Source: a virus. From it: DNA of 44,764 bases. The notes below the pieces were generated by a model, which had not been told where the DNA came from, ran no database searches, and saw only the letters and a list, made by a program, of their open reading frames with translations. How positions within the stretch are numbered: position 1 is the stretch's first letter; each line of letters starts with the position of its first letter. The position numbers were made by a program, and so were the translations under genes. The stretch covers positions 1-44,764 of IMG/VR virus record IMGVR_UViG_3300035701_000074. The stretch is one strand, 5' to 3'. Shown here piece by piece: positions 31,663 to 32,085 of this stretch.

Positions 31663-31776
31663 TTATTCTTCTACTATTATTAGCCAATCACCACAATCAC
31701 AATATCTATATTTTTTAATTAAAAGTGCATAACCATACCAAACTTTACCGCACCTTAAACATATAGCCTTTGGCAT
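31663..31776 (-). CDS. 37-residue zinc ribbon peptide
   Basis: A frame of 37 codons: MPKAICLRCGKVWYGYALLI, then YRYCDCGDWLIIVEE. The CxxC and CxC pairs make a minimal zinc ribbon. AAAAAGGGGGTGATTAA directly precedes the ATG, one of the best ribosome sites in this region, which supports it although it is very short. Confidence 0.6.
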   Translation of the reverse strand: MPKAICLRCGKVWYGYALLIKKYRYCDCGDWLIIVEE

Positions 31777-31796: not shown

Positions 31797-31987
31797 TGCC
31801 TGCCCTGACAGGATTCGAACCCGATTTGTAGATATTAGTCTATTCTGAGGTTACTCTGAGTTCTTTCGTCCTTCCAACGGCTGGAATATTAAGAGGTAAT
31901 GAGCCTCTCTATCTTTTGGGATAGTTCCATCTATTCCGATAACTTTGGACACCACTGCGTTTTCGCCAGAACGCCACAGGGCAGGCA
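31797..31987 (-). ncRNA. tRNA-like structured RNA, 191 nt
   Basis: Read on the minus strand, TGCCTGCCCTG (31987-31977) pairs with CAGGGCAGGCA (31807-31797), 11 bp. Then comes GCGTT/AACGC (31970-31974 with 31957-31961) with loop CTGGCGAA, like a D arm. At the other end lies a T arm, CGGG-TTCGAAT-CCTG, one base before the long stem, as in tRNA. Between them, instead of about 25 bases, are about 130: GGAATA/TATTCC encloses two hairpins, CTATC/GATAG and AGAGG/CCTCT, the latter with loop CTCATTA, which equals a CAU anticodon loop in size. It is not a plain tRNA. The arms were found by hand, without energy calculation. No coding frame crosses it. Confidence 0.6.
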
Positions 31988-32010
31988 TTTATTTTATTAA
32001 AACATTCTTG

Positions 32011-32038
32011 TCTTCAAAAATTGAATTTGATAATGTAA
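32011..32038 (-). repeat. palindromic intergenic element, copy A
   Basis: On the minus strand this reads ACATTATCAAATTCAATTT then TTGAAGA, matching the first part of the element at 43498-43532 with three differences in 26 bases. It lies directly after the hairpin that ends the gene at 32081, and ahead of the tRNA-like RNA. It may be an operator or processing site. Confidence 0.55.
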
Positions 32039-32085
32039 TTAAAAAAGGAAGCTATTTGATATAATAACTTCCTTTATTAATTACA
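32034..32085 (-). terminator. stem-loop after the 32081 gene
   Basis: TGTAATTAA (32034-32042) pairs with TTAATTACA (32077-32085) and AAAGGAAG (32044-32051) with CTTCCTTT (32068-32075), a 17 bp stem with one mismatch and a 16-base loop. It overlaps the last codons of the gene ending at 32081. In minus-strand direction it is followed by an A/T-rich stretch. It probably ends or attenuates early transcription before the tRNA-like RNA. Confidence 0.6.

Follow-up and report, generated by a model that had tools for sequence, protein, structure and literature searches.

The window, by which we mean the whole stretch of DNA analysed, is an IMG/VR virus contig of 44,764 bases that belongs to a tailed phage, as judged by its terminase, family-A DNA polymerase, ParB/methyltransferase, and tail proteins. 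Within a cluster of small early-type genes, and on the same strand as these, lies a 191-nt RNA that resembles a tRNA (Table 1). RNA position i corresponds to window position 31988 − i, read 5′–3′ on the minus strand; from 31987 to 31797 the full sequence is UGCCUGCCCUG-UG-GCGUU-CUGGCGAA-AACGC-[132 nt]-UCGGG-UUCGAAU-CCUGU-CAGGGCAGGCA. The outer strands, UGCCUGCCCUG (31987–31977) and CAGGGCAGGCA (31807–31797), form 11 perfect pairs. The last seven of these stand in exact tRNA register, as do the D-arm-like hairpin, the T-arm, and the U-G spacer: the T-arm continues directly into the 3′ strand, and the 5′ strand is two bases away from the D-stem. A preliminary description of this DNA had given the same coordinates and strand, and its main structural elements are borne out by the present analysis: the 11-bp closing stem, all pairs of which show changes on both sides in the family described below; the D-arm-like hairpin with GG in its loop, the stem of which is to be corrected to the five pairs seen in the family; and the T-arm with its UUCGAAU loop, which lies in tRNA register and has a covarying stem.

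Table 1. Features of the tRNA-like RNA and its surroundings in the window, in the direction of reading.
Feature	Position	Strand	Basis or remark
Intrinsic terminator of the upstream unit	32044..32075	-	Relative L004 has a hairpin of different sequence in the same place
Putative promoter region	31996..32042	-	30 nt (32042-32013) identical in L004, flanks ~78%
Whole tRNA-like RNA, closing helix to closing helix	31797..31987	-	Fold, descriptor scan, family members
Closing (acceptor-like) helix, 5′ strand UGCCUGCCCUG	31977..31987	-	Last 7 nt are the tRNA acceptor register, first 4 extend it
U-G spacer, closing helix to D-arm	31975..31976	-	Like tRNA U8 and position 9; invariant in the 16-row alignment
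D-arm-like hairpin GCGUU-CUGGCGAA-AACGC	31957..31974	-	Five pairs, GG in the loop; near-invariant across the family
Variable domain of 132 nt replacing the anticodon arm	31825..31956	-	Family comparison
GGAAUA, one strand of the earlier-proposed helix	31932..31937	-	Overlaps candidate P2; p = 0.46
Candidate P2 helix, 5′ strand UAGAUG	31928..31933	-	p = 0.26 in the window alone; family-wide P2 p = 1.5e-5
Hairpin AGAGG-CUCAUUA-CCUCU ("CAU-like" loop)	31892..31908	-	In the sequence; without conservation in the family
UAUUCC, partner strand of the earlier-proposed helix	31883..31888	-	Same test, p = 0.46
Candidate P2 helix, 3′ strand UAUCUA	31829..31834	-	CAAA linker next, then the T-arm
T-arm UCGGG-UUCGAAU-CCUGU	31808..31824	-	Four pairs and U.U at the base; abuts the closing helix
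Closing helix, 3′ strand CAGGGCAGGCA	31797..31807	-	Without CCA end
ORF of 37 aa, zinc-ribbon-like, with ribosome site	31663..31776	-	Begins 20 nt after the RNA

The 30-nt stretch shared with L004 is probably a phage promoter. It is followed at 32004–31996 (minus strand) by an extended -10-like sequence, TG-N-TTTAAT, which was not listed by the scan for promoter consensus sequences. From this arrangement we infer a transcription start near 31989, so that the RNA would form the 5′ end of its transcript. In L004 the identical stretch leads straight into a gene and the RNA is absent, which indicates that the RNA was gained or lost as a unit. L004 was also considered as a source of a diverged copy of the RNA and rejected, as it contains the promoter region without the RNA.

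Folded as a whole, the 191 nt have a stability z-score of −2.36, with 2 of 200 shuffled sequences equally stable. A descriptor combining acceptor, U8, D-arm, and T-arm matches the window once, at 31797–31987, and has no match in 60 Markov copies; ARAGORN locates the same interval when introns are allowed, with one spurious match across the 60 copies. The signatures of a tRNA are present, namely U8, the GG of the D-loop, a UUCRAnY T-loop with the G53-C61 pair, and an acceptor stacked on the T-arm. The RNA matches neither RF00005 nor the default mode of ARAGORN, which is without any match in the window, and a 7-nt loop on a 5-bp anticodon stem is not kept in its relatives, the inserts of which range from 16 to 193 nt and share no common arm. 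Rfam 15 at curated thresholds likewise gave no match in the window, and a permissive Rfam scan of the RNA region returned unrelated weak matches only, with no intron family, group I included, up to E = 10. The initial statement that this is no ordinary known RNA therefore holds against Rfam 15 and ARAGORN in default mode, and the absence of a group I intron holds against the group I and other intron families of Rfam. As for tmRNA, the window contains no match to RF00023 and no tag reading frame, and the alanine identity of tmRNA (G3-U70) and a CCA are absent from the acceptor sequences of the family members. Readings of the window RNA as a tmRNA or a riboswitch were rejected because Rfam gave no match.

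The RNA very probably belongs to a new family of tRNA-scaffold RNAs in phages. Scanning IMG/VR and GTDB with sequence patterns brought the family to 18 distinct RNAs in 17 contigs (that of the window and 17 others), and most of the phages carrying them share almost no proteins with each other. That at least 17 more RNAs of this design occur in uncultured phages, most of them unrelated, argues for a real RNA family and against a chance fold; these 18 members and their strong covariation uphold the original view that a large domain replaces the anticodon arm in an otherwise tRNA-like RNA. The family is characterized by a near-invariant D-arm (UGGYGUUCUGGYGAAAACRC), the T-arm, a covarying closing helix, and a variable insert, all of which are present in the window. 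The 18-mer TGGCGTTCTGGCGAAAAC was found in 16 IMG/VR stretches, as opposed to an estimated one or two by chance, and most of these have the same architecture. Other members were recovered by a looser D-arm pattern, by the GTDB scan, and by a seed made from the T-arm and the end of the insert-closing helix P2 alone. This seed, which does not require the D-arm, gave five hits, all of which carry one; four were known before, and the new one (L037) has the family sequence with one loop change. Because most members were found via the D-arm, its invariance is partly a selection effect, and further members may have divergent D-arms. In bacterial and archaeal genomes totalling 257 Gb, a 19-mer from the D-arm was found three times, and it thus does not derive from the D-arm of an ordinary tRNA; of these three matches, L036 is a complete member and L034 a fragment that ends at the contig edge and was set aside.

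All family members are metagenomic sequences, and the searches may omit records very close to the window. E-values of the family model are rough, and the sequences in the model match it by construction. Short blastn, within its sensitivity, detected no homologues among 50,697 cultured phage records and 72,556 plasmids, and blastn with the whole RNA against cultured phages gave no match. Short insert sequences, a 23-mer searched in IMG/VR and a 22-mer in GTDB genomes, were also without match, because the insert is unrelated between members. With neighboring genes as baits, relatives of the terminase and the exonuclease were found, and none of a 105-aa gene. D-arm-like matches in the cultured phages EP1, SUSP2, SSU5, and VH-8 and in a Serratia plasmid have no T-arm and were dismissed as chance or coding sequence, as were records with the D-arm pattern alone (L018, L032, L038, L039, L043, and L047). 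L059 is an ordinary tRNA gene, and L029 and L035 were not counted because a T-arm was not found alongside their D-arm.

The core alignment comprises 59 columns and 16 rows. In it, 91.4% of the cells that should pair do so, compared with 68.7% in shuffles, and the covariation score of the 21 core pairs (0.603) exceeds every control, shuffled (0.181) as well as slid (0.10–0.15). Changes on both sides were observed in 15 of these pairs, including all 11 of the closing helix, which varies in sequence and has no conserved motif while its pairing is kept. Compensatory changes, whose lack the preliminary description had taken to speak against its structure, are thus present in the closing helix and the T-stem. 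The D-stem is nearly fixed and its rare variation covaries, GCGUU/AACGC being replaced by GUGUU/AACAC in L045; the D-arm sequence must have a specific reader of its own. Further signature bases of the family are U8, the GG of the D-loop, and a UUCRAAU T-loop with a G-C or G-U closing pair. The closing helix comprises 8–11 bp in most members, compared with the shorter acceptor of tRNA, and is imperfect in L026 and L027; an encoded CCA end in register was found in none of the members. The 80-nt RNA of L044, with an insert of 21 nt, folds unaided into the closing helix, the D-arm, a 4-bp mini-hairpin, and the T-arm. This is a structured RNA under selection in phages, in which the tRNA elbow is kept and the anticodon arm is gone.

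In most members the insert is closed by P2, with AAA or CAAA next and then the T-arm. A search for P2 over all members outperforms shuffles (combined p = 1.5e-5), and for the window alone gives p = 0.26. Alignment of inserts with each other revealed no pair of members that is better than shuffles. The scaffolds of the window and L019 agree in 57 of 59 bases (31/31 and 26/28), with no detectable similarity between the inserts, and the two phages share one protein in the comparison; such near-identical scaffolds with unrelated inserts imply that the insert is exchanged or replaced while the scaffold is kept. The phage of L020 has two intact copies of the RNA in tandem, of which the second (L020:13212–13375) is missing from L030, a 99.95% identical record with a single copy, so that copies are gained and lost quickly. 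A decayed third copy lies at L020:7346–7480, and the closing helix is closely similar in all three.

Inside the insert of the window, the GGAATA/TATTCC helix of the preliminary description can form but is missing from the minimum-energy fold and, taken alone, is at chance level (p = 0.46); as one of its strands overlaps candidate P2, the two helices compete. The hairpin that was likened to a CAU anticodon loop can be seen in the sequence, but the family has nothing corresponding to it. Because this loop is not conserved, the suggestion of a tRNA with two insertions is not supported; moreover, L021 and L044 hold only 16 and 21 nt at this site, and the isotypes assigned by ARAGORN differ between members or are lacking. 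Pairing of the 5′ linker with the interior of the insert as a pseudoknot was weak (combined p = 0.02, window p = 0.46) and is not claimed, and the window insert as an antisense to its own genome was discarded, as its complementarity is not above shuffles. Among the other inserts, that of L023:11145–11288 contains a direct repeat of GGGTGTGAAATAGCACTAAT, to which GAGGTGTGAAATGGCAC in L035 (from 7552 onward) is similar. L026:3080–3268 and L029 (from 1496 onward) resemble each other over ~60–75 nt of the insert that follows the D-arm; beyond this, L029 enters a gene and looks like a truncated copy.

About 12 of the 18 members lie at most 25 nt from the following start codon, and the RNA often occupies the gap from a stop codon to the ribosome site that follows, with genes on the same strand. 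L037 and L044 have no gene directly behind, and L044 is located near a tRNA-His gene. The neighboring genes are often involved in replication or recombination (Cas4-type exonuclease, ssDNA-binding/DUF669, ParB, primase, VRR-NUC), which fits early expression and names no function.

Mimicry of tRNA has been studied extensively in plant viruses, tmRNA, and Y RNAs. A phage RNA family of the present kind is absent from Rfam 15, and a search of the open-access literature for the motif and for such RNAs yielded no description. tmRNA is closest to it in plan and the Y RNA YrlA in idea. With tmRNA (RF00023) the family shares the acceptor-like helix, the D-arm region, the T-arm, and a helix leading to a large variable part. 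It differs by the missing Rfam match, tag frame, encoded CCA, and G3-U70, by a true, near-invariant D-stem of 5 bp, and by a closing helix of often 8–11 bp. YrlA is a bacterial Y RNA whose tRNA-like module binds and recruits PNPase; it is likewise a modular RNA, of 90–150 nt, that mimics D-arm, T-arm, and acceptor and has a non-tRNA part for another partner (PMC8394870). Its two ends, however, form a basal stem for Rsr, whereas those of the present family form the acceptor-like helix on the T-arm. A TROVE/Ro60 gene was detected in one of the 19 phage-side records searched and is absent from the window, and the RNA adjoining this gene is a different, CCA-ending, tRNA-like one. Species 1 of phage T4 is a long-known stable RNA of unknown function. 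This 139-nt RNA (rnaC; NC_000866) resembles the family as a stable phage RNA beside tRNA genes that has a canonical T-arm near its 3′ end, but the family model matches its T-arm only and no matching D-arm is present. The family gives this T4 RNA a possible context. In engineered tRNA scaffolds for recombinant RNA production, foreign RNA replaces the anticodon arm of a tRNA; these are man-made constructs based on real tRNAs, whereas the present RNAs are a distinct natural family. An example of such engineered scaffolds is PMC3753655.

The family probably functions through tRNA mimicry. The most economical mechanism, which we favor tentatively and at somewhat less than an even chance, is that the RNA docks via its tRNA elbow on a host factor and acts as a decoy or tether with a replaceable domain. 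Its transcription would accompany that of early phage genes, probably starting in the window from a promoter of its own, and the RNA would fold like the upper half of a tRNA, for which reason it should be compact and stable. In the core of closing helix (mostly 8–11 bp), D-arm, and T-arm, the two loops would be placed for elbow docking, and the replaceable, helix-closed domain would sit where the anticodon arm would be. The constant parts (D-loop GG, T-loop, stacked acceptor and T helices) are the features by which elbow-reading factors recognize their target, which is what suggests docking; candidates for the factor bound by the invariant elbow are RNase P, PNPase (the partner in the Y RNA system), or an enzyme of tRNA modification or surveillance. 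Charging and decoding are unlikely given the missing anticodon arm, the long closing helix, and the lack of an encoded CCA, and a closing helix of 8–11 bp would also hinder normal processing by RNase P, a point that counts against the proposed mechanism, as do the imperfect closing helices of L026 and L027. The RNA would then act in trans on the bound factor, with P2 holding the domain off the core and free for exchange; the swapped domain would either be irrelevant or be the changing, target-specific part. One near-invariant arm with a freely exchanged domain across unrelated phages points to a common host target. In a bolder version, which is possible but on balance doubtful, phages display exchangeable RNA modules on a natural tRNA scaffold with a specific host docking partner, as a cassette-like payload for takeover or counter-defence.

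The closeness of most members to the next start codon speaks against an action in trans, as it also fits a cis-acting leader. The RNA might accordingly be an element of early operons that sets mRNA ends or lifetimes, either as RNase P/RNase Z punctuation or as a 5′-end or intercistronic stabilizer, with the insert as filler. Its sharing of the strand with the genes, the little space on either side, the frequent order of stop codon, RNA, and ribosome site, and, in the window, its probable position at the 5′ end of a transcript behind a conserved promoter region all agree with this. Yet tight spacing is to be expected for RNA genes of whatever kind where the phage genome is dense, a signal for processing or stability needs no single near-invariant D-arm, L037 and L044 have no gene directly behind, and in L004 this promoter region drives a gene with the RNA absent, so that we consider such an element rather unlikely. 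It is unlikely, too, that the core is only a protective carrier, a natural tRNA scaffold whose function resides in the changing insert (antisense, sponge, or protein-binding) in an arms race with hosts or other phages. Wholly unrelated inserts on nearly identical scaffolds and the insulation of the insert by P2 would suit a carrier, as would the separate tRNA-scaffold RNA with a 68-nt insert that one family phage has beside a Ro60/TROVE gene and that shows tRNA scaffolds to be in use for RNAs in such phages; an invariant D-arm would be needless for it, however, two members are almost without insert (16 and 21 nt), the inserts are mutually dissimilar, and complementarity of the window insert to its own genome is not above shuffles.

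Both rank as serious rivals of the docking mechanism. Two further explanations carry much less weight. A tmRNA-type or trans-translation mimic that competes for SmpB or related factors and lacks both tag frame and alanine identity is very unlikely: the plan of acceptor, D-arm region, P2 with a large variable part, and T-arm is shared with tmRNA, and the L019 phage also has a 99-nt RNA matching the Rfam tmRNA model, but none of the members matches RF00023, ARAGORN finds no tmRNA, CCA is not encoded, and the 5-bp D-stem is a true one, unlike in tmRNA. An ordinary tRNA-Trp (CCA), which ARAGORN reports with a 92-nt intron if introns are allowed, or a decayed tRNA is highly improbable, as it requires a mismatched anticodon stem and a 22-nt variable loop, the short members have no room for an anticodon arm, and no intron family matches. 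The same setting assigns other members to Thr, Ala, Ala, Ile, Asp, Asn, Leu, Thr, or nothing, and with such disagreement between isotypes a tRNA with intron is refuted for the family. The 21-nt motif together with the T-arm offers a clear handle on the family for simple searching and testing.

Other tRNA-like RNAs were encountered in the member phages. The 99-nt RNA at L019:1893–1991 matches the ends of the whole Rfam tmRNA model (49.1 bits) and has G3-U70, A73, and CCA; it is too short for the usual tag frame. The RNA at L087:8973–9103 (IMGVR_UViG_3300017991_004311, ~48973–49103) matches the Rfam tRNA model with 42 bits, has a CCA end, carries 68 nt of insert where a tRNA has its anticodon arm, and adjoins the TROVE (Ro60/Rsr) gene at L087:9236–10729. 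Its motif CCCTGTGCGATTGTTC recurs, with one base different, in a hairpin just before this gene, and by its sequence the locus looks like a phage Ro60–Y RNA locus with the Y part on a tRNA scaffold.
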